Shown here piece after piece: positions 3,972 to 39,175 of a stretch of 64,000 bases of DNA. The notes below the pieces were generated by a model that was not told where the DNA came from, searched no databases, and saw nothing but the letters and a program-made list of their open reading frames with translations. The number at the start of each line of letters is the position of its first letter. Positions within the stretch are counted from its first letter, which is position 1. Source of the DNA: Rosa chinensis (lineage: Eukaryota > Streptophyta > Magnoliopsida > Rosales > Rosaceae); assembly GCF_002994745.2 (NCBI RefSeq), contig NC_037094.1, forward strand, positions 20,933,001 to 20,997,000. The letters are read 5' to 3'. The translations under genes were made by a program, and so were the position numbers.

Positions 3972-6900
3972 TGTGATGCCCCGGAAATTCGTAATTATTT
4001 TCCAAGGATTTTTCGGAATTAATTTTATAACTATTGGACGGTTTCGTGGCTCGTGGATGGAGCGGAAGTGTTTCGGGCGAATAATTAATTGAAGAATATG
4101 GTTTTAGGGGGGTTGACAAAGATTGAATTTTTATTCGTTGGGATTCTCCTAAAACTTCCTTCACGAAAGTTGTAGAGCGCGTCGATACGAGTTCGTGGAC
4201 ATGTGGAACGCGAGAATCGGAGTTCGTATGAGAAAGTTATGGCCATTGGAAGGAATTTCCATTTTGATATAAATAGAAGTTTCCCAAGTTGGAAACTTAC
4301 TATTTTCATTTCTTCCATTTTCGGAAGTTACTTTCTCTCTCTCTTCTCTCTCGGCTGCTACCTTCAGAATCGAAATTATCCGGCTGACCCGACCCGAACC
4401 CGGACGGTCCGACCAGACTTTTCCGGCGAGCTGCGGCGGTCTCCGGCGACGAAACTTTCCAGATAGGATCGTCTCCTCCGTCTGGTCGTCCCTCTGGTGT
4501 CCTCTAGCACCGATTCTCCTCCACGGCGGCGCTGCAAGGCGGTGCAGGTTGGTGTTTCCGGACCCGATCGGAATTCCTCGTTCCGACGTCGGCAAGGCTT
4601 TGATTTTTCTTGGTTGAGCTCAGAACAGCCTCGCCGATCGATCCTTGGTGGTTGTTTGGATCGATTCACGTGAAACTTCGATCAACTCAGTTGGGATCAC
4701 TGTTCACGGCTTGTGAGGTATTTTTCGATCCCTTAAACTTGTTTTCTGACTTCGATCCAGTTATGAAAGTTCACAAGCATGCTTAGATGAAGCTTTTTGA
4801 TGTTGGGAGTTTTGTCAAATTCCGACTTTGGTCCGGCGGCGGTGCCGCCACTGTGGTGGTGTTTTCCGGCGGTTTTCGGCCACCTCAGGGATAGTTTCTG
4901 TTCCTGAGTTCGATCTACTCGTCGATACGAGCATTTCGATATATTGTTTGTAATTTTTGGAGATCGTATGAGCATGTTGTGATTTTTACGGTTTCGGACC
5001 GTTCGATGTTTCGATCCGTGAGGATTCGAGCGTCCGATCGACTTGTGGTTTTGGCATTTCGATCGTAGATGTATTCTGGAGACATTGGGTGGTCTTGGAT
5101 GTGGTTTCGCCTCAATTGGCGTCACTTTGGGGATTTTAGTTCAAAACAGGGGTTTCGGACTTAAATCGTTTGTGAATTGTTACTAAGTGAAAACCGATTG
5201 TGATTAGGTACTTGACGAAGTATTCTTGGACGATCGTTTTGTGGATTGGCTGCTTTGTTCTGTATTGAAGACGCAGCAGGAGTTTCGAGGTGAGTAATCT
5301 CACGATGTTCATTCACTAACGGGTTTACCATATTGTCTTGGAGTTATGAGATTAACTGTGACTATAGTTGGTATTAGTGGCTTTTCTGTGTGGATGGATG
5401 ACTATGTGTGTGTATATATATATATTATGGGATGTATATATATACATATATATTCATGTATTAGTGGCTTCGTGGTGAATCTTTGTGATGATTGTCATGT
5501 AAAGCTTGTGTAGATCTGTGTAGCTTGTGTAGGGATGTTTGTGTGATGATTGCTATCTATGTGATGACTAGCAATGAATCTATGTGGGAGGATCGCTATC
5601 TGTGTGATGACTGGCGATATCTGTGTGATGATTAGTTAAATGATCGCTATCTATGTGATGACCGGCGATATCTGTGTGATGAATATGTGCGATGATTGCT
5701 ATCTGTGTGATGACTAGCAATGAATCTATGTGGGAGGATCGCTATCTGTGTGATAACTGGCGATATCTGTGTGATGGTTAGTTAAATGATCGCTATCTAT
5801 GTGATGACCAGCGATATCTGTGTGATGAATATGTGGGATGATCGCTATCTATGTGATGACCAGCGATATCTGTGTGATGAATATGTGGGATGATCGCTAT
5901 CTGTGTGATGACTGGTGATATCTGTGTAATGATTAGTTAAATGATCGCTATCTATGTGATGACCAGCGATATCTGTGTGATGATCAGTAGGATGATCGCT
6001 ATCTGCGTGATGATTAGTTGGATGATCAGCGATATCTGTGTGATGATCAGTAGGATGATGGCTATCTGTGTGATGATCGATGGAATCTATGTGATGATCA
6101 GTGTGATGACAGCTCGGTAGCGGAGTTGAATTGTTATTAAGTTAACAAAGATCGAGAGGACTGCTGTGATGGTTGGGGCTACCTACAGACGTGAGAGTGT
6201 GGGATTACTATGGTTTGAATTGCTTGACTTAGTGTGACCTCCTGAACTAAATTATATGCAGGGGTTACCATGACTTGTTTTGCTTGTTTTGAATTGTGAT
6301 TGCCTTGTTTTCTTCTTGATTTGATTGATTGATGGTTTGATTTATCTTGAAAACCATAGTGGTGACGATTGTGCTCTGTGTGAGGATAGGAAGGTGATTC
6401 ATTGTTTTCACCTTGATGTCATGTTGATGACAAGGTTTCCTGTGGGAAGGAAATGAGTGTGATCCTTGTGACTCACCGTTGTGCGTCAAGGGATTTTCAA
6501 ACATTATCTAAGGAGGTTTTGTTTGACGGGGAATTTGTGTAATGAGATGCTAAGTTGAGAATCTGAGCATGTAGTTTAGTCACGAGTTGACCTATGTAAG
6601 CATGAGATGGAAGAGTGAAGCAGATGGTTGTAGGTGTGAGATGTATGCTTATCATTGTTTAGGTTGGGTGACTTAAGAAATGTGTTTTGCTTTGTGGTTT
6701 TGAGTTACTCATACGGGCTTGCAAAAGCTTACCGGGTTTGTTGTGTGGCAACCCGGTACACCGTTCCAACGGTGTAGGGGTTATTTCTGCAGGTCGGGTT
6801 GATCGTGGCTGATGCTGAGGTAGCGTGCTTGCAGCTTAACGGTAATAAGTCAATTTTGTGACCTTACCGTTATAAAGACTTCCGCTTGTGGTGAGCTCTG

Positions 6901-24429: not shown

Positions 24430-25083
24430 TGATAGTATATGGCAGCTGACATATTGTACAGTAGATACCATCCAAAAATGTAACCTGTGAATCATCGTAA
24501 ATATAGATTCCATCTCAAGATATTTACCTCATCTCAAGATATTTACCTCATGAATCATGGTATTTCAAATAAATCTATCAATAGCTGTATGTAACCTAAT
24601 TCTTCTGCATAGTCAACACGCTCAACAATACTCTCCATTGTCTTCCACTACCCCCCTGACTCCCATCCACTCGGCACAATCCCATTGGCTGCAGCTCTCC
24701 ACTCTGGCTCAAACAGTGAGACGCCAATATAATAATTTTAATCAATAAACCCCAAAATATCTTCTTCCCCACCATAAAAACACTGCGCGTAGTTCCCGTA
24801 CCCTTCACCGGCCTCGTCCTGCCCCCAGACACCAAAAACGTTAACGTATTACACCAATCATATAATAAGCAAAAAAAGCCTGGTCCCGTTCTCGACCGTT
24901 TAAACTAGTAAGACCAACGGTTCAGATCCCACAAGGAGCTTGTTTCTTTGTTTGTCTTCATAAAAACCTTCCCTCGTTGTTTCCTAAACATTCAAACTCT
25001 CTCTCTCTCTCTCTCTGTCAGTCTCCGTTATATCAAAGTCCTCGATGGCGTTACGGTCTTAGGAACAAGAGCGAGAGTCAAAA
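24430..25083 (+). promoter_or_regulatory. 5' flank and 5' UTR of the PGSIP8-like gene
   Basis: Upstream sequence of the glycosyltransferase. A CT-rich tract at about 25000-25018 sits about 65 bp before the start codon, as often in plant 5' UTRs. I do not see a convincing TATA box at a fixed distance. Confidence 0.45.
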
Positions 25084-28000
25084 ATGGTGAGGGGCGGCAT
25101 TGGAATTTTCAAGCTACTAGCGGTGTTGTTGCTCGCCGTTTGGGAAACGACGGCGTATAGGGAGCTGAGCCGGCAGCCACAGCAACAGCAACAGCAACAA
25201 CAACAGCACCGGAATGCGTACGCGGCGATGATGTACATGGGGACGCCGAGGGACTACGAGTTCTACGTGGCGACACGGGTCATGATCAGATCTCTCGTCA
25301 AGCTCCACGTGGACGCCGATCTCGTCGTCATTGCCTCCCCGGACGTCCCCCTGCGATGGGCCCAAGCCATGTAAGTCTTCTCAGCCCTTCTCTTTTGCAT
25401 TTTTAGTCTTCCCGGTTTTCGAGGGATTAATGTGCGCCTCAGAAGACGCTAGGCTTGTCAAGGTGTACGAAGGGTTGGTGTTACTTTAGTTTTCTCTTTT
25501 CGAGTCAACTTTGGTGGAAGCTAGGTCTGCGGCCCTGTTGAAAACGGTGACCGGGTTTCTGATTGGTCGAGACCACCGGTTTTCCGGTGGAGTTGGACGC
25601 AGCGGAGAGATATTGTTTTAGAGTCGATGATTCCTTATAAGGATAAGAATATCGGTGGTATCTACCCATTTTTGTTGCCTTTTCGAGTCATAGGGCACGA
25701 TATGATGCAATCACCCACCGTTGACTATCCGGTAAGGACTGGACCGGTGGTATTGGTAATGTCAATTAAGTAAAAGAGGAGCTAGACGTTTCGTTTTCGC
25801 ATGACGCGTGGCAGATTGTGGTTGGTTGGCCCTAAAGTCGATGGAACCCAAGTGATGGAAACATTGGTTTCGACGAACATTCGTTGGACTAAGTATTTTT
25901 GGGTTGCAATATACTGTTGATTTTTTCCTTAAAGGTTAATATGAAGGAAGAGTAGGATTAAGGGGGTTGATTTTAACGCAATTTTACCTCTTTCGGCTTA
26001 GAGCAACTCCAACAGATTCCTCATATTTAGATTTTTCTCTACTTTAGGGAAAAATAAGTCTCTTTTGTCCCAACAGATTCCTTATAATTATCTTTATTTT
26101 AGAAGAAGTGAGAAAAGAGAAAATTAAATTCCCTATATTTACAGCAATCTCTAAAATTTAAAGAATAATATGGAGATTTTAGAGATTGATGTAGAATAGA
26201 GAATCTGTTGGAGTTGGAGAAGAAAAAGATGCTAAATCTTTGAATTTTGCTTCCCTTATTATACAGAAACTATAGTGAAGCTGTTGGAGTTGCTATTGAT
26301 TAAATAAGTTATGAATCTTTTTTCTGTGTTTAACAAGTGCAACTTTGGTAGTGTAATAATTTTGAAAATTGAAATGCTCCTAAATGATTATTTTATAGGA
26401 CTTACATGAGATTCTATATAAGCAAGTTTATTGATAAGATGTATATAGATGAGTCCAAGTTGTTGGAAAATGATTCCTTCAACGGAATGGTGTTCTTATA
26501 GAGTTTGAAAGAGGATAACTTCCAAGCTCAGAAATATCTGAATATTGTATTTTTAAGGGAAGAAATATTCATCTGCATTTGCGAAGTGATTTGGTTTTAT
26601 CTGTATATGTAATATGACAAGCACTTATTGGTGGTTCCTTGTCATACTGTAGTTTGGTTTGTCAGATAGCCCTTTCCTCTGTCACATCAATACTAGTTGA
26701 CAACTTGGGATGCAAACAATAAGCCATCCCATCCCCCAGCCAAGAACTTAAGGACCTGCAAGTTAAATCTGTAGAGAAGTGTACAAGGAATTGCTCGGGT
26801 TTATGATTGGTGAAAGATGGATTTATCAGTTGAAAAATTCAGAGCATCACATATTCCGAAGTCGGTAAAAATTCTCCAAAAGTCTGTTTAATAGGCTAAT
26901 TTGAAGAATCATTGCCTCAAAAGATCAGCAGAGACGAAAATTATTTAACCCTTGAATCGTAATCATGATCATGTCGATGGTCACAGGAAACACTACACTA
27001 ATATGTCCGGCTGTTTAGTTGTTGGATCATTGATAGCTGACTAAATGCTTTCTCAAAGCGGTAGTTTTAGTTAGAGCGCCTCTTAAATTAGATGTAAGGC
27101 ACAGACAGTTCGGATCATTGAATTGCATTAGCCTAAAAGCTATCCCATGGAAAGAGATCCCTCTAATGAAACTCAATCTCCCTACCAATACCAGTTTGTA
27201 GTGTATTTTTCACAAAAAAAGTGTGTGGGTTTATTTCTCTCGTAGAATTTGATACCATCACTACTAGCATGCACAGATAAGTTACATTCTTTTAGCTATT
27301 CAGGCATTAGAACAGGTTCTGTTATTGTGACTCAGGGAACAGGAAGATGGGGCAAAGGTGGTGAGAGTGGAAAATTTGAACAATCCATACAAGGATCAGA
27401 AGAATTTTGATAAAAGATTCAAGTTAACCCTGAACAAACTCTATGCGTGGAGCCTAGTGCAGTATGACAGGGTGGTCATGCTTGATTCAGACAATCTGTT
27501 CCTCCAAAATACTGATGAGCTCTTCCAATGTGGTCAATTCTGTGCAGCTTTCATTAACCCGTGCATCTTCCACACTGGCCTCTTTGTGTTGCAGGTAATT
27601 GCTACCACTCAAATCATATTTTTGTTTGAAAATATGTATAAAGTAAAGAATCAACATTTAAACAATATTACTGATTTATGATTCCTTGTTGTGATTCTGA
27701 TTTTACAAAAGCTATTCTCACTTGGTTTGTTATTCCAGTCGTGAGTAATCATACTCACGACTGGAATTGGACTATTGGAGAATCACAAACTTAAGTGCTA
27801 GTATCATTACCCCTTAAAAATAGTTAAAGTAATTTCTAGAGTGGAATCTAGTCTGAGGCAATCATCAGAAACAACATCTAGTTGAATTCCTTCCCTTTCA
27901 TATTATTCCTGAGAGACAGTAGCTGAGGCATCATTTATCAATATTATTGCAGCCATCAATGGAAGTGTTCAAGGACATGCTTCATCAGTTGGATATTGGG

Positions 28001-29276
28001 AAAGACAATCCTGATGGTGCTGACCAGGGTTTTATTGGTGGTTACTTCCCGGACCTGCTTAGTCAACCCTTGTTCAATGCACCTTCTGATGGGTCCAAGC
28101 TTAATGGAACCTACAGACTTCCCTTGGGCTATCAAATGGATGCTTCCTATTACTGTAAGTGAAGCAAAATAAAATATCTAATATTTTAAATGAAACTTGG
28201 CAACGATGACTGCAGGTGGTTCCTTGTCCAACTATGGTTTCTTATAGTTTCTTGGCCTACTTTTGCCTGATCCAGATCTTAAACTGCACTGGAGTGTACC
28301 GTGCGGACCCAACAGTGTGATTACTTTCCCCGGTGCACCATGGTTGAAGCCATGGTATTGGTGGTCATGGCCTGTGCTTCCATTGGGCATTTCGTGGCAT
28401 AAACAACGTCATCATACTCTCGGGTAAGACCAAAACCCTTTACTATTACTCAGTTATCATTAGTCACCAAATTGAGGAGTTAAGTAACATGCCACTATCT
28501 TGTTATAAATAATCGAGGTTCAGAATAGCCATAAAGATGTAAACGAATGAATTACTTGTGTTGTTGTCTAAGCATACTCGAGTGCTGTCAAATGAACACC
28601 TTTCAACTTGATCAATACAGCAAGAATGCTCCTTCTTTATCCAGAAGTAACAATGTTTTTATTTCATCTAGGTACACCAACTATAAACAATATACCCCTC
28701 CTATTGGATTATTGGAATTTATTGGTATGTACAGCTGCAAAACCGAATCTTTGCTGTCCTAATTGTCCTCTATATTACAGGTATGGTGCAGAGATGCCTG
28801 TGTTTGTAATCCAGTCGATCATTTTTCTTGGAATAATAGCAATGACACGTCTAGCACGACCCAACATATCAAAATTGTGCTATAGGCGCTCGGACAAGGG
28901 CATAATACACACAACCCTCAAACTAATAGCTATGCTGTCCATTCTAGCTGCTTACACAGCACCTTTCCTGGTCATTCCTCACACGATTCATCCAATACTA
29001 GGCTGGAGTCTATATTTCCTCGCCTCTTTCACCCTTTGCTTCATTGCAATCAATGCATTTTCGCTACCAACGCTGCCTGTTTTAGTACCATGGATTGGCA
29101 TTTTCGGTGTCCTTTTGGTCATGGTTTATCCTTTTCCAGACGGTGTTATAAGAGCTCTCTCTGTGTTTCTCTATGCATTTTGTGCAGCACCATTCTTATG
29201 GGTGTCTATGGTTAAGATCATAACATCTCTTCAAGCCTCACTTGAAAGGGAAGCATATTTTCCTAAAATTGGGTGA
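25084..29276 (+). CDS. PGSIP8: GT8 glucuronosyltransferase, PGSIP7/8 type
   Basis: Five exons: 25084-25370, 27336-27594, 27953-28154, 28276-28423 and 28781-29276. All have GT-AG borders and join in phase to 463 residues. The protein has an N-terminal signal or anchor (1-25), a nine-Gln run (33-41), and the GT8 core with the metal-binding DSD at 146-148 (VVMLDSDNLFL). GADQGFIGGYFPDLL follows, then GAPWLKPWYWW (269-279), the KPW-type motif. Several hydrophobic segments occupy the C-terminal third (IQSIIFLGIIA onward). The polytopic C-terminus is typical of the PGSIP6/7/8 branch of the GUX family, which includes the sphingolipid glucuronosyltransferase IPUT1 and acts in the Golgi. The exact acceptor of PGSIP7/8 is not certain. 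I cannot separate PGSIP7 from PGSIP8 by eye. The 3' UTR continues to about 29600. Confidence 0.92.
26001..26295. mobile_element. MITE in intron 1 of the PGSIP8-like gene
   Basis: It begins GAGCAACTCCAACAGATTCC and ends CTGTTGGAGTTGCT, giving terminal inverted repeats of about 14 bp. The body is A/T-rich and noncoding, about 295 bp. A target duplication is not clear, so the superfamily is open. Confidence 0.75.
27732..27767. other. perfect 16-bp-arm hairpin in intron 2 of the PGSIP8-like gene
   Basis: ATTCCAGTCGTGAGTA (27732-27747) is followed by the loop ATCA and the exact reverse complement (27752-27767). No pairing extends beyond the arms. It lies between exons 2 and 3. Confidence 0.95.
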
Positions 29277-30164: not shown

Positions 30165-31115
30165 TTACTTAGGATTCCTAAGAACTATAATCACAGAATC
30201 ACCACGGAGGAACATCTTGCTGATGAATCTATCTTTGTTAACCGGTTGTGCTTTCTTCTTGCCCTTTCCAGTTTTTGGGACCTGCATATAGATACATGGA
30301 TCAACACAGATGATTGGCGAAAATGAATGACCAGATTGTATAGATAGAAAACATAGAAATAAGAGTTATGAAAAATACCTCGGTCCACATCTCCTTAACA
30401 TTCTCAAGGACCATGTTGCAATGTCTATCAAAAGCCCTCACACGGCCAAGAAGCTTCCTGTTATTACGACAATTGATGAGGACCTGCTTGCACAATGAGA
30501 ACCAAATTGAATTAGAAATATAATCGAGACAAGTGATGAAAAGAATACTAATATTTAACCATATATTACCTGAGTGTTATTTTTGACACTCATCATCAGA
30601 ACTGAAAGTGGTCCAGTATTGAACTCCTCTTCCTCATTCTTGGAACCCTGAAGCAGTTAATTTGAATTAGAACCAGATGGCTATATAGGGATAGAAGCCA
30701 TGATAAAGTTGACAATGAGAACCTAAATCAAGAATCACAACTTTCCTAGAAAAAACCAACTGAAGTGCAAAAATATCTCAACTAGGTTACAAGAAACACC
30801 ATCAATGTCCTCAAAATACAATTTTTTTTACAGTGAAAACAGTGAAGCATCACTCAATACAATTGAAAATAGTAAATTAAGAAGTTGATTTCATATTAGC
30901 ATCTGAGAAAATTAGCTCAAGGTGTGGCAAAACAACATTTAGTAGAATTAGCTCAAGGAAAGTATAACTTACATCTTCCTCCATTGGCCGACTGGAAAAG
31001 AAGGGGAAATAATCACAAAACAAAAAAGAGAAACAACTGTCAGTATTTCAGTAAAAAGGACATACATCAACCAGATTAATAACATGTAAACCAAATTATA
31101 CAATTCATACCTCAT
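30165..31115 (-). CDS. SMD2: small nuclear ribonucleoprotein Sm D2
   Basis: Four coding exons on the minus strand: 31111-31115, 30973-30991, 30570-30647, 30379-30483; and the last coding exon 30165-30281, so five coding pieces in all. Joined they give 107 residues in one phase. The product is the Sm-ring subunit D2 of U1, U2, U4 and U5 snRNPs. It contains [20 protein letters not shown], then [32 protein letters not shown] and the C-terminal [20 protein letters not shown], covering Sm1 and Sm2. It is nearly identical to animal and plant Sm D2. The first coding exon supplies only ATG AG and the second is a 19-base microexon, so short-frame searches miss the N-terminus. The start was chosen because ATGAG directly precedes a GTATGA donor and joins in phase to TCGGCCAATGG, giving MSRPMEED, the expected N-terminus. 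Confidence 0.93.
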
Positions 31116-31165: not shown

Positions 31166-31377
31166 CCTGGCAAGGAATACATCAATCAGATTAATAACAA
31201 GTAATAATTTAATTAAGGACACTGTAAGACTAATAGAATAAAGACCTTTTTTTTTTCAAAGAGTCATAAAAGAATGATTTAATAGTCTAAATCACATAAG
31301 CAAAAAGGACACATAAATAGTTGAAATACAAGGTGACCCTAGAGATAAGTATATTGTCCAAAATATACATAAACAAG

Positions 31378-31453
31378 TCCCTTCAGTTCAGGTCTCCAAA
31401 AATTTTCCGCATGGAGATCTCAGTAGAAATGTTTCAATCATCATCAGGGGCAA
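31378..31453 (-). ncRNA. box C/D snoRNA-like unit a
   Basis: Read on the minus strand: C box TGATGA within CCCCTGATGATGATTG (31438-31446), D' box CTGA (31420-31423), D box CTGA (31388-31391). The D' guide segment (TTGAAACATTTCTA) differs from units e-g and I cannot assign a target. All box motifs are intact. Confidence 0.65.
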
Positions 31454-31586
31454 CATAAAATCTTACCAAGAAATTACTAAACAGTGTCACAAGCAAACAA
31501 ACAAGAAAAAGTATTAAATTCAATATTTATATCCCTACAAATATCATTGTAACAGTATGCATAAATTTTAAGTAGGAATAAACAAG

Positions 31587-31663
31587 TCCCTTCAGTTCAG
31601 GTCTCCAAAAATTTTCCGCATGGAGATCTCAGTAGAAATGTTTCAATCATCATCAGGGGCAAC
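31587..31663 (-). ncRNA. box C/D snoRNA-like unit b
   Basis: A copy of unit a with the same C, D' and D boxes and the same divergent D' guide. D box at 31597-31600. It arose with the 209/213-bp duplication. Confidence 0.65.
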
Positions 31664-31799
31664 ATAAAATCTTACCAAGAAATTACTAAACAGTGTCACA
31701 AGCAAACAAACAAACAAGAAAAAGTATTAAATTCAATATTTATATCCCTACAAATATCATTGTAACAGTATGCATAAATTTTAAGTAGGAATAAACAAG

Positions 31800-31873
31800 T
31801 CCCTTCAGTTCAGGTCTCCAAAAGTTTTCTGCATGGAGCATCTTAGCACAGTTTTAATTCATCATCAGGGCAA
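31800..31873 (-). ncRNA. box C/D snoRNA-like unit c, decayed
   Basis: The C box (TGATGATGA) and D box (CTGA, in TCAGGTCTCC on the plus strand) remain. The D' box reads CTAA instead of CTGA and its guide has changed. Probably nonfunctional. Confidence 0.45.
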
Positions 31874-31942
31874 TAAAGTAATACAGAAAATAGTCTCAAT
31901 CACCTAACCAAAAGGACATGACAGTTTTAAATAAACAAACAA

Positions 31943-32023
31943 GCCTTTATAGTTCAGCTATCCAAATAGTTTCTGCATGGAACATCTTGGAAAAACAAAA
32001 GTATTTTTTAAACATCATCAAAA
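31943..32023 (-). ncRNA. box C/D snoRNA-like unit d, decayed
   Basis: D box CTGA (31954-31957) and a TGATGATG C-box region remain, but the D' box is lost (CCAAG) and the D guide is altered. The most degenerate unit. Confidence 0.4.
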
Positions 32024-32106
32024 TAACTCGATACTATAAATCACCTAAAAAGACGCAAGATACTTCAGATATAATATGTACCCTAGACATAAACGACACA
32101 TATACA

Positions 32107-32192
32107 AGCCTCTTCAGTTCAGGTCTCCAATATTTTTCCGCATTGAATATCTCGGAAGAACGAAAGTATTTTTGAATCATCATCAGGGGCAT
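32107..32192 (-). ncRNA. box C/D snoRNA-like unit e (U59-type guide)
   Basis: C box TGATGA within 32177-32186, D box CTGA at 32119-32122. The D' guide is complementary to 18S AAGAACGAAAGU (plus-strand copy 32156-32167). The D' box reads CCGA, one change from CTGA, so D'-directed activity may be weak. Confidence 0.6.
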
Positions 32193-32285
32193 ATAAAAGG
32201 ACATGAAATTGTTTCAAGTACAGCGATAGTTCAGATAAAATATATATCCTATCCATAAATATATTTAGTATATGTACAATGCAAG

Positions 32286-32378
32286 TGCCTCTTCAGTTCA
32301 GGTCTCCAAAAATTTTCCACATAGAGCATAAAGCATCTCAGAAGAACGAAAGTATTTTTGAATCATCATCAGGGGCAA
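32286..32378 (-). ncRNA. SNORD59-like: box C/D snoRNA, U59-type, unit f
   Basis: A predicted box C/D methylation guide. On the minus strand: C box TGATGA (32363-32371 region), guide ACTTTCGTTCTT directly followed by D' box CTGA (32338-32341), and D box CTGA (32298-32301). The guide is the exact complement of AAGAACGAAAGU in 18S rRNA. By the D+5 rule the modified base is the fifth, the A in AAGA(A)C. From memory this is the site guided by human U59 (18S A1031) and yeast snR54 (A974). The terminal stem is short: CCCCU facing AGAGG if the outer CTGA is taken as D box. The target of the second guide (GGAAAATTTTTGGAGAC) is unassigned. Confidence 0.82.
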
Positions 32379-32516
32379 TATAAAATGACAGAATATATAA
32401 CTCAATAGTCAATACTCTTTTTTCCCCCCAAAATAACCTAAATGTCTAAATCACATAACCCAAAGAACATGTAATAGTAGACAAGTAACTCATGCACAAT
32501 TCTAAGCAACACAAAT

Positions 32517-32613
32517 TAGCCTCTTCAGTTCAGGTCTCCAAAAATTTTCCACATAGAGCGTAGCGCATCTCAGAAGAACGAAAGTATTTTTTTGAATCAT
32601 CATCAGAGGCAAC
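32517..32613 (-). ncRNA. SNORD59-like: box C/D snoRNA, U59-type, unit g
   Basis: The unit nearest the host 5' end. C box TGATGA within about 32597-32605, D' box CTGA (32570-32573) directly next to the guide complementary to 18S AAGAACGAAAGU (plus-strand copy 32574-32585), D box CTGA (32530-32533). All canonical boxes are intact, as in unit f. Confidence 0.82.
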
Positions 32614-33153
32614 ATAAATTCATATATAACACAGAACAATGCTAACACTGTTCATCAATTTTGGCAAACAAAGCAACTCAAGTTCATATCCCCAAATAAA
32701 CACAACAGAAACGCAAAGAGAACACAAATATATATATATATTTTTTTTAAATCACAATGCTTGAATTGGGTTCCAAAATTGTTTAAAAGAAAAATCTTCC
32801 TCAAAAAAAAAAATCTTGAACTCTGTACAATACTCTTCGGCTTATCAAAGCAGATCAGAGAAACACTTTCATGTTAAACCAATTACTCAGAACCAGTTCA
32901 TCCTCAGCTTCAGATACAAAGACTAATCTAAGGTCAACATATAACAGATTATACCAAACAAATATGATAACAAGAACCTAAATTTTTCATGGTGAAGAAA
33001 CTCAATGCTTTCAGCTAGAACAAATCCATTCACCGAATCGATAACAGATTCAAATTACGAAACATCGATTAAACCCTAACAGAGAAACAGTAGAGAGCAT
33101 AGATCAAGGAGCGAGTGATAAACAAGTTGAATTTAAAGATGAGCGGTTCTTAC

Positions 33154-33230
33154 CGATCGATGAAGCGCGAGGTAAGGAGAGGCGGTGGAGAGTGAGAGAG
33201 AGTGAGGGTGCCGATCTAGGGTTTATGTAG
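33154..33230 (-). other. first noncoding exon of Sm D2 (approximate 5' end)
   Basis: The sequence ending in ATCGATCG before the donor GTAAGAACC, minus strand, with a CT-rich stretch typical of plant 5' UTRs. The transcription start is not fixed; 33230 is an estimate. Confidence 0.55.
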
Positions 33231-33388
33231 GGGTCGCTGAGGAAAGAGAGGGGGAACAAATTGAAAGTAAGGAGAAAAATTTAGGGCCGGCCGCTTAGAG
33301 ATGGGAAACAAATGGGGAAAAGGCTATTTGGGCCCTGAAAGTTTTCTTTGTTTGTGTGATGTCGAGGCCCAGAGACCTGATTTGGGCT
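33217..33388 (-). promoter_or_regulatory. Sm D2 promoter with telo-box and site II elements
   Basis: A telo-box AAACCCTA (minus strand) lies at 33217-33224. Site II words TGGGCC/TGGGCT or their complement lie at 33329-33334, 33366-33371 and 33383-33388. In plants the pairing of telo-box and site II marks promoters of ribosomal-protein, snoRNA and other ribosome-biogenesis genes. The orientation and spacing here suit a minus-strand start near 33230. Confidence 0.65.
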
Positions 33389-33752: not shown

Positions 33753-34225
33753 GAGTGTGTTTGGATGAGGGAAAAATGATGAATTTTAATTGAAAGTGAG
33801 GATTTCATAATTCCTAAAAGTCAATTCCCTCGTTTGACATTATCAGATTGGAGATTTTAAATTTCCATGTAAAAAAAAATGAAGGAATTCATTATTTAAA
33901 TTTCCTACTTCAATTTCTACTAAAATATGTGTCATTTATGAATTCTTTTGCAGTATTTAATTTTTATTTCCAAAATAAGGTTTTTTTTTTATTTGTTTTA
34001 AACTTTCTTAATTTATTACACATTTTAAATCCTAAATAGATACAACGAAACAATAGAAATTGCAATTAATGAAATTTTAGATTGACGGAGTTAAAGATTC
34101 CATTATTTATAAATTTCTACAGATTTTATAATTTTCTCATCATTTATTATTATTATTTTTTAAATGATTTTCTCATCATTTATAAATTCTTACAGATTTT
34201 ATAATTTTCTCATCCAAACGCACTC
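33753..34225. mobile_element. MITE with GAGTGTGTTTGGATGAG termini
   Basis: Left end GAGTGTGTTTGGATGAG, right end CTCATCCAAACGCACTC: 17-bp inverted repeats with one mismatch. The body is A/T-rich and noncoding, about 473 bp. The GTGTTTGG-type terminus is common among plant MITEs. The target duplication is unclear. Confidence 0.8.
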
Positions 34226-34785: not shown

Positions 34786-34924
34786 AGAGCAAGTTCACCT
34801 GTAGTAAAAAAAAGGCAAAGTCGAGAAGTCAAGAATTCGACCAGTCAAGTTATTATTCACTGCCACTGAACATAGGTTTGCACCTGTTTTTTTTCTTGCC
34901 CGGTCAACAATGTTCAATTTTTAC

Positions 34925-34967
<43 letters not shown>

Positions 34968-35323
34968 TGTTCACTACTTTTTCACTGTTCACTCATGGGT
35001 TTATTGTTTAAAGTCACTGTTCATCCGTGAAGGTTTGAAACCGCATCCTCCTGCTGTGATTCGTCCGTGCTCTTCACGCCCTCTCTCTCTGCACTGGCCC
35101 CTGTGACGTCAGCCACGATCGACTGCGGGCCGAGCTGGCAGCAGGCCAAGCCTGGGCAAGACAAAAGGCATGGGCTTGGAATTTTTCTTGCCCTTGGTCA
35201 AACAAAGCCAAAGTTTGCCCGGGCAAAACAGGCCCGGTGGAGGGGAAAAAAGGAGCACGCCCAGGCAACACATCGGATTGCTAAGGTGGTGCCCGATCAA
35301 GCATCGACCGCTGCACTTGCTCT
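34786..35323. mobile_element. possible TIR element with internal (TA)n
   Basis: Ends AGAGCAAGT and ACTTGCTCT are inverted. A (TA)18 run lies at 34931-34966, and GGGCAAGA/GGCCCGG words mark the right half. The inverted repeat is short and no target duplication is clear. Confidence 0.5.
34931..34966 (+). repeat. (TA)18 microsatellite
   Basis: An uninterrupted TA dinucleotide run. Confidence 0.95.
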
Positions 35324-36963: not shown

Positions 36964-39175
36964 ATGGCTTCTTTTCTATCATCTTCATTCTTTTATTTCT
37001 ACTTCTACTTGGTTTGTTTCGTACTCACTTTGCTGTTGTTTCATGCAGAACCAGCTCAAGGTCGAAGAAGCAGCTTTGATATTCTCAGTTCATCTCCAGC
37101 CACCGGAAATAGTAATAATAGTAGCAGCTCATCCAACCGTACCAGCAACCAGCGGAAGTGGGTCGGGCCAGTCGGCCACCGCCTCATTACCGTGGACCTA
37201 AGAGGTTCCGGCGACTTCAAGTCAGTCCAGTCAGCCGTCAATGCAGTTCCGGTCAACAATACGGTTAATGTCCTCATCCACATCAAGCCCGGATGTTACA
37301 TGTAAATGTGATTATGTATACAATGTGTCAAGCTAGCAAAAGATGGTATTGGTTTAGTGTTGGAGGTTTACATAGAGTTTTGTGGGGTGTGCAGAGAGAA
37401 AGTGCTGGTGCCGGCGACGAAGCCGTACATAACGTTTCAAGGCGCTGGGAAAGATGCGACGGTGATCGAATGGCACGACCGAGCCAGTGACCGTGGACCT
37501 AACGGGCAGCAGCTGCGGACTTACAGAACTGCTTCTGTCACGGTCTTGGCCAACTATTTCTCAGCCAGAAACATTAGCTTCAAGGTAGCTTCAAATATTT
37601 TCTAATTGTATGTGTGACGTTTAGATCGATAATATAATAATATAACAATATAACAACGATCAAATTTATATGCATCTAGTATTATGTGATTAGTACATAA
37701 CTGTTAACATGTTATGCAAATGTGTGGGTTTTGTTACAGAATACGGCACCGGCTCCAATGCCGGGGATGCAAGGATGGCAGGCGGTAGCATTTCGGATAT
37801 CGGGCGACAAGGCATACTTCTCCGGATGTGGGTTCTATGGCGCCCAAGACACACTCTGCGACGATGCCGGACGCCATTACTTCAAAGAGTGTTACATCGA
37901 GGGTTCCATAGACTTCATCTTCGGAAATGGCCGCTCCATGTACAAAGTAAGCACCTAGCTAGCTAATTAGTATTTTTAGAACGATAAGTACGTACTTTGC
38001 TAATTTGCTTGCTAAATAATTTGTCTTCGTCTTAATGTCTTCCCCTCCAATCAAGATCTAGTGCTTGATTGTCTTGAAAAATGTGCATGCAAACATACGA
38101 GTGCTGATGAGAGTGATGTGAGGAAAAATATGGAAACCCGTGACCTTGTGTTCGTACGTAGCTTGATATGCGCATTATTGGAATCAATCTGGCAAAATAA
38201 AGAAAAGGACGTTGCAGACAGTGATCCATCACTTTTGAAAAGGAAGGAAGCTTTTTATCACCTTCACCAGTTTTATGTGTTGGTGGCAACAAGTTTCATC
38301 ACCAAACCAGAAAAAGTTAGGTTGTGTAATGTGAGACTAGCTCTTAGAAACCATAAGTAAGCAGTAATTAACATGTCTAACCACGATTTAAATGAAATGA
38401 TAACCATTATTGAAGCGAAGTTAGACTTGTATTTTCAGTGGTCAAAAGTATTTACTTTCGCATCCGGCATCAAACGTTTGAATCGTGTTTGATACGCTTT
38501 TATGTAACAAAGAAAAAGCGGTAAGCAAATCATGTCTAAGCACAAATCCAAATAATGTTTGCCAATCTCGGCCTTTTTTTTCAACAATTTTTACTGTTTT
38601 ACGGTGACTTTTGGGCTGCAATGAGTTTGTTTGACTTTTTGACTGTTTTACTGTTGGCACAGGACTGTGAGCTGCACTCAATAGCTACCAAGTTCGGCTC
38701 CATTGCAGCTCAGTTCAGAAAATCACCGGACGATAAATCGGGCTTCGCTTTTCTCAACTGCCGGGTAACGGGTTCGGGTCCACTCTATGTGGGTCGGGCC
38801 ATGGGCAAGTACGCCAGGATTGTATACTCCTACACATACTTTGATGATGTGGTCGCACATGGTGCCTGGGATGACTGGAACACAACCAGTACAAAGTGAG
38901 TGCTACCCTAACTCGGAAATAACTAACTTGCTAGCTCGGACGCATCATTTTGTGAACAAATTTATTATTGGTGTTATTGTTTTCTAATGATGAGATATGT
39001 GTAATTGTTCTGGTGCAGGACTGATTTTCTAGGAGTGTACAACTGCTGGGGTCCCGGAGCAGAAGCCTTGCGCGGACTGTCATATGCACCGGAGCTTGAT
39101 TTCGACTTGGCGCACCCATTTCTGAGGAAGAGCTTTGTCAATGGAAGACACTGGATAGCCCCATCTGATGCTTAA
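36964..39175 (+). CDS. pectinesterase (pectin methylesterase) without PMEI domain
   Basis: Five exons: 36964-37301, 37395-37584, 37740-37946, 38663-38895 and 39019-39175. Together they give 374 residues in phase with GT-AG borders. The product is secreted to the cell wall, where it removes methyl esters from homogalacturonan (carbohydrate esterase family 8). A signal peptide covers about 1-31 and a Ser/Asn-rich linker follows. The CE8 motifs are [36 protein letters not shown] (Gln190), GAQDTL (Asp213, acid/base), DFIFGN (Asp234, nucleophile) and [20 protein letters not shown] (Arg290). The family's GRPW tryptophan is Met here, as in the PME8/PME53-like group. No PMEI pro-region precedes the catalytic domain (type II-like). 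I suspect PME53 or PME8 but cannot decide. The 716-bp intron 3 and the last exons were copied into the two decayed blocks downstream. Confidence 0.92.

Follow-up and report, generated by a model that had tools for sequence, protein, structure and literature searches.

A stretch of 64,000 nucleotides from Rosa chinensis (NCBI RefSeq assembly GCF_002994745.2, contig NC_037094.1, positions 20,933,001 to 20,997,000 of the forward strand), referred to here as the window and numbered from its first base, contains what we interpret, with a probability of about 0.9, as seven tandem copies of the U59/snoZ159 box C/D small nucleolar RNA (snoRNA) within the 5′ untranslated region (UTR) intron of the gene for the spliceosomal protein SmD2. 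This interpretation was drawn from the DNA sequence. All seven units, spanning 31377-32610 on the minus strand, matched the Rfam family RF00160 (snoZ159/U59) above its gathering threshold of 39 bits, with E-values between 1.8e-13 and 0.00022 in 64 kb. The identity had been proposed earlier in a sequence-only reading of this DNA and was borne out in every unit, f and g included. The units differed in their possession of two guides, complementary to 18S and 25S ribosomal RNA (rRNA) respectively. In the order of transcription, the candidate units were:

32519..32610, minus strand: unit g, U59/snoZ159 C/D snoRNA with both guides (12/12 each) and a 5-bp terminal stem, GCCTC/GAGGC; RF00160 76.0 bits
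32287..32376, minus strand: unit f, U59 C/D snoRNA with both guides (12/12 each); RF00160 66.0 bits
32108..32190, minus strand: unit e, U59 C/D snoRNA with both guides (12/12 each), D′ box CCGA; RF00160 66.9 bits
31943..32025, minus strand: unit d, degenerate copy, both guides 10/12, D box CTAT, D′ box CCAA, C box ATGATGT; RF00160 40.9 bits, barely over 39
31799..31872, minus strand: unit c, which keeps the 25S guide but not the 18S guide and has CTAA as its D′ box; RF00160 44.3 bits
31586..31660, minus strand: unit b, which keeps the D′ box CTGA and the 25S guide but not the 18S guide; RF00160 56.6 bits
31377..31451, minus strand: unit a, body identical to that of b (identity 1.0); RF00160 56.6 bits

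No other Rfam family reached its own gathering score across the 64 kb; matches to Afu_294, also a C/D family, and two microRNA matches all fell below that level and were rejected. An nhmmer profile of the units recovered the same seven places and no eighth unit or remnant in the window at E-values up to 10. Chance motif matches were ruled out by the RF00160 E-values, and by the likeness of the unit bodies beside spacers whose similarity was at shuffled level.

TGATGA was present close to the 5′ end of every unit, and the canonical ATGATGA in all except d. The terminal D box CTGA stood at its aligned place in six of the seven, unit d having CTAT. A C box RUGAUGA together with a D box CUGA near the ends, as expected of box C/D snoRNAs, was therefore found in six units, d lacking both. 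The sequence-only reading had credited all seven repeats with C and D boxes; this was correct for TGATGA but one unit too many for the D box. Its count of four canonical D′ boxes (a, b, f and g) stood, as did the weakened D′ box of e.

The 18S guide, ACTTTCGTTCTT, was an exact 12-base complement in units e, f and g (3/7), placed directly before the D′ box as previously claimed, and the 12-mer was absent elsewhere in the window on either strand. The second guide, TTGGAGACCTGA, lies one base before box D and is complementary to 25S rRNA. It had been overlooked in the sequence-only reading. More units keep it than keep the 18S guide: it was exact in six of the seven, with 10/12 in d, which has no CTGA at the D place. 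The guides were located as follows:

32574..32585, minus strand: 18S guide of unit g (ACTTTCGTTCTT), 12-base complement of 18S
32342..32353, minus strand: 18S guide of unit f, 12-base complement of 18S
32156..32167, minus strand: 18S guide of unit e, 12-base complement of 18S
32530..32541, minus strand: unit g, 25S guide (TTGGAGACCTGA), complementary over 12 bases to the eukaryotic large subunit (LSU) rRNA core
32298..32309, minus strand: 25S guide of unit f, 12-base LSU complement
32119..32130, minus strand: 25S guide of unit e, 12-base LSU complement
31810..31821, minus strand: 25S guide of unit c, 12-base LSU complement
31597..31608, minus strand: 25S guide of unit b, 12-base LSU complement
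31388..31399, minus strand: 25S guide of unit a, 12-base LSU complement

The 18S reference was a record scored as SSU_rRNA_eukarya by Rfam over 1764/1764 bases. The 25S comparison was made with a single 401-base eukaryotic LSU fragment, and the Rfam LSU consensus was identical to it in letters at the guide site. In units e, f and g, positions 1-12 before D′ paired 12/12 with 18S, and D′+5 met the A preceding CG in AAGAACG. In six of the seven units, positions 2-13 before D paired 12/12 with UCAGGUCUCCAA in the LSU fragment, with a G at position 5. These positions were numbered against Table 1 of PMC8053127, a RiboMeth-seq list of 111 Arabidopsis sites. With the D′+5 adenosine set as A978, 11/11 table sites from 780 to 1275 agreed in letter, against 2-5/11 for eight neighbouring offsets. 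With the D+5 guanosine set as G1855, 5/5 nearby sites agreed (C1847, C1850, G1855, C1860, U1892), which was unique among the 355 offsets tested. The table assigns both 18S A978 and 25S G1855 to SnoR59, which the same source notes as having several gene variants in Arabidopsis, while a list in PMC6461891 gives SNOR59a and SNOR59b for LSU-G1845, in a different numbering. By their register, the guides point to 18S A978 (D′) and 25S G1855 (D). Since both are SnoR59 sites, the register matches indicate that the array encodes a known double-guide RNA with both of its known targets. Like Arabidopsis SnoR59, it has the C and D boxes, the D′ guide to A978 and the D guide to G1855, in the same order and register. 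A SnoR59-type guide to A978 was found in e, f and g (12/12 in 3/3); a, b and c have no such guide, and in d it is imperfect. The 18S target proposed in the sequence-only reading was thus recovered, and we take human U59 (SNORD59) and yeast snR54 to address the same 18S adenosine.

The minus-strand gene harbouring the array was identified as that of the core spliceosomal protein SmD2, again in agreement with the earlier proposal. The spliced product of 107 aa had the SmD2 chain 1b34_B as its top PDB match (E 8.8e-57) and contained a Pfam LSM domain. The intron at 33153-31167, the splicing of which was predicted from its letters, starts with GTAAGA, ends with TGCCAG and would split the 5′ UTR. 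All seven units lie in this one intron, sense relative to SmD2, in the transcript order g, f, e, d, c, b, a. The array thus has the sense orientation, the position inside a protein-gene intron and the predicted splicing of a plant intronic snoRNA cluster. The parts of the gene were:

30165..31115, minus strand: coding part of SmD2 in five exons, for a product of 107 aa; translation across four GT-AG introns, PDB and Pfam LSM matches
31167..33153, minus strand: SmD2 5′ UTR host intron, 1987 bases; splice sites read from the sequence
33217..33388, minus strand: motifs 5′ of the intron that may belong to a promoter or leader, from a motif scan

The motif scan found a telo box, AAACCCTA, from 33224 (minus strand), together with site II hexamers from three positions, 33388, 33371 and 33334, all upstream of the host intron. 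This pair of motifs is reported in PMC3022908 from promoters of genes carrying intronic snoRNA clusters. A 37-base tandem repeat of 3.1 copies was also present upstream of the SmD2 gene (34101-34214).

The sequence-only reading had called a homogeneous multi-copy array within a spliceosomal-protein gene unusual, plant snoRNAs mostly forming independent polycistronic clusters. For Arabidopsis this agrees with a passage of PMC3022908, in which intronic snoRNAs are called an exception, but it holds less well for rice, for which the same source gives an intronic location to 31 loci (28% of 109), ribosomal protein genes being the hosts of 15. The rice clusters resemble the array in having several snoRNAs inside protein-gene introns. 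Most of them have promoters in which a telo box is combined with site II elements, of which the motifs upstream of the SmD2 intron are candidate counterparts. They differ in their hosts, 15/31 being ribosomal protein genes according to that account, whereas the Rosa array occupies an Sm core protein gene and consists of one family throughout. Arabidopsis FIB1 and FIB2 carry the intronic C/D snoRNAs U60.1F and U60.2F (PMC8053127), another plant case of nesting in genes for ribonucleoprotein proteins, and U60.1F is described there as unexpressed in the host mutant fib1-1. Unlike the array, one snoRNA is named per host intron in that source, and the guide is another. SmD2 was not found as a snoRNA host in the literature searched, although key early catalogues lay outside that search and an earlier description is possible.

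Units e to g kept both guides, and units a to c kept the 25S guide only; all of a to c retained ATGATGA and the D box. In a and b the alignment showed a deletion at the 18S guide, leaving the D′ CTGA intact, whereas c had lost both the guide and the D′ box. Unit d is degenerate and probably dead. When d was left aside, the invariant columns comprised 12/12 of the 25S guide, 6/6 of TGATGA and 4/4 of the D box, but 2/12 of the 18S guide. Body identity ranged from 64 to 100% over the 21 unit pairs, and the downstream spacers (the next 140 bases in the case of unit a) were within 0.07 of the shuffled level in 20/21 pairs. The exception was the c-b pair, whose spacers were 97% identical, indicating a recent duplication. 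Its breakpoint seems to lie within the unit, as c and b were 94% identical in their 3′ halves and 73% in their 5′ halves. Among the older pairs (g-f, f-e and g-e), the bodies agreed at 83-93%, whereas spacers were 43-57% alike, with shuffled values of 45-52%. That bodies were held while spacers decayed argues for selection on the bodies and for function.

Several observations qualify or weigh against these readings. Gene conversion limited to the bodies would give a similar pattern of conserved units and diverged spacers. Units a to c share a recent 3′ half, such that their intact 25S guides represent approximately one lineage. Some spacer homology also remained, in the form of a module of about 30 bases that recurs between units at 70-79% and is likely to be a remnant of older duplications that included spacer DNA:

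31270-31305, 31881-31913, 32019-32048 and 32429-32464: recurrent module of roughly 30 bases in the spacers between units (like GTGATTTAGACTATT, minus strand)

The folds of six units (a being omitted, its body equalling that of b) were not clearly better than those of shuffled sequences, with z from -1.65 to 1.08; C/D snoRNAs are generally weakly folded. The Rfam model has four stem pairs. Units e and f each had one non-standard pair among them, the other five units none, and the stem of d was A/U-rich. Over the whole 18S record, table letters agreed at 21/35 for the chosen offset and at 24/35 for the next one, a discrepancy that may reflect length differences elsewhere in the record. The promoter motifs are short, and over the whole window, on either strand, telo boxes numbered 8 and site II hexamers 46, which makes each of them individually weak. 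Finally, a passage of PMC5122169 places snoR59 among families hypothesised to be recent plant innovations, which does not speak for orthology of the array with human U59.

The pattern of guide loss could also be read as that of a partly dead array, in which one to three copies (e, f and g) make all functional U59 while a to d decay, the 25S guide of the decaying copies being intact through recent duplication. We regard this as possible, though not the favoured view. It would account for the missing D box and inexact guides of d and for the absence of the 18S guide from a to c, and the 97% likeness of the c and b spacers marks these as young copies. The altered D′ guides of b (which a shares) and c, moreover, paired with 18S no better than shuffles did (52 and 78/100 shuffles matched them), and on these grounds a gain of another 18S target by them was rejected. 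However, TGATGA, the D box and every letter of the 25S guide were kept in a to c, whose scores of 44-57 bits exceed the gathering threshold of 39, and in the 3′ half c was 86% and b 89% like e, beside spacers at background. A gain of a new target by a and b, through the altered guide TTGAAACATTTCTA ahead of a perfect CTGA, would explain why the D′ box was retained beside a changed guide. It is very improbable, as the best 18S pairing comprised only 7 Watson-Crick pairs, the number reached by those 52 shuffles, and at most 5 were found in the 401-base LSU fragment. If all six intact units were functional, the array might be a subfunctionalised dose device, in which three double-guide and three 25S-only U59 RNAs provide twice the guide supply for 25S G1855 as for 18S A978, both tied to SmD2 transcription and splicing; we think this unlikely.

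A further question is how the snoRNAs would be released. Their expression, processing and coupling to SmD2, the last of which the sequence-only reading had also proposed, are predicted from the arrangement of the locus, in which the SmD2 intron would yield the snoRNAs and these in turn would direct the two rRNA methylations, at 18S A978 and 25S G1855. Alternatively, the array could have its own promoter, or be cut from the precursor independently of splicing, in which case SmD2 and snoRNA output would be untied. Endonucleolytic cleavage is described as common for plant polycistronic snoRNAs in passages of PMC4660826 and PMC5122169, and a reverse telo box (TAGGGTTT) was found within the intron at 33078. 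Against this, the seven sense units lie between clean splice sites of SmD2, the telo box and three site II hexamers stand upstream of the intron, and PMC4660826 also states, in the part concerning intronic snoRNAs, that these are freed in plants from introns produced by splicing. Independent release thus appears rather doubtful. The most likely reading is that the snoRNAs derive from the SmD2 intron and guide both methylations.

The letters just before the ATGC or ATGT of each unit were able to pair with the unit's own 25S guide in most copies, as CTCCA-TGGAG in a, b and c, CTCTA-TGGAG in f and g and CAAT-ATTG in e. This pairing was present in the folds of b and c and absent from those of f and g. 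It could mask the 25S guide in the free RNA, but pairings this short are likely to arise by chance.

Elsewhere in the window, a plus-strand gene at 25063-29276 is seemingly convergent with SmD2. One of its open frames had a weak match to Pfam Mannosyl_trans3 (22.2 bits, where the cut-off is 22), a second frame that was tested had no match, and a later frame was membrane-rich by eye; the gene presumably resembles plant glycosyltransferases of the GUX/IPUT type. A pectinesterase gene was present at 37312-37958 on the plus strand (Pfam PF01095 in two open frames), and a TA microsatellite at 34924-34969 on the plus strand yielded sub-threshold microRNA matches. In the search for rRNA references, a query with an LSU core stretch found no match among plasmid and phage records. 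A second LSU stretch matched 461 plasmid records at 60-90% identity, and the 20 among the matches listed were from bacteria and archaea, with no plant 25S. Three rRNA patterns looked for in viral contigs were not found. Record NZ_CP050525.1, filed as an Acinetobacter baumannii plasmid, matched eukaryotic 18S rRNA over its whole length and is probably a contaminant. In a Mangrovicoccus genome contig, eukaryotic LSU rRNA sequence was embedded at about 4000-4400 with other sequence around it; the contig is likely to be a chimeric assembly.

Earlier work had already established intronic plant snoRNA clusters, the U59 family with both of its targets, and the nesting of snoRNAs in introns. While the RNA family is ordinary, its repeated array in SmD2, with some copies holding one guide of two, is a neat case with an instructive pattern of guide loss. 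One intron displays the stages of such loss after duplication, since double-guide and single-guide copies lie next to one that is probably dying. The array would also provide a plant case of rRNA methylation guides on the same primary transcript as a core spliceosomal protein, and this shared transcript would open a coupling that is often assumed to testing at the splice sites.
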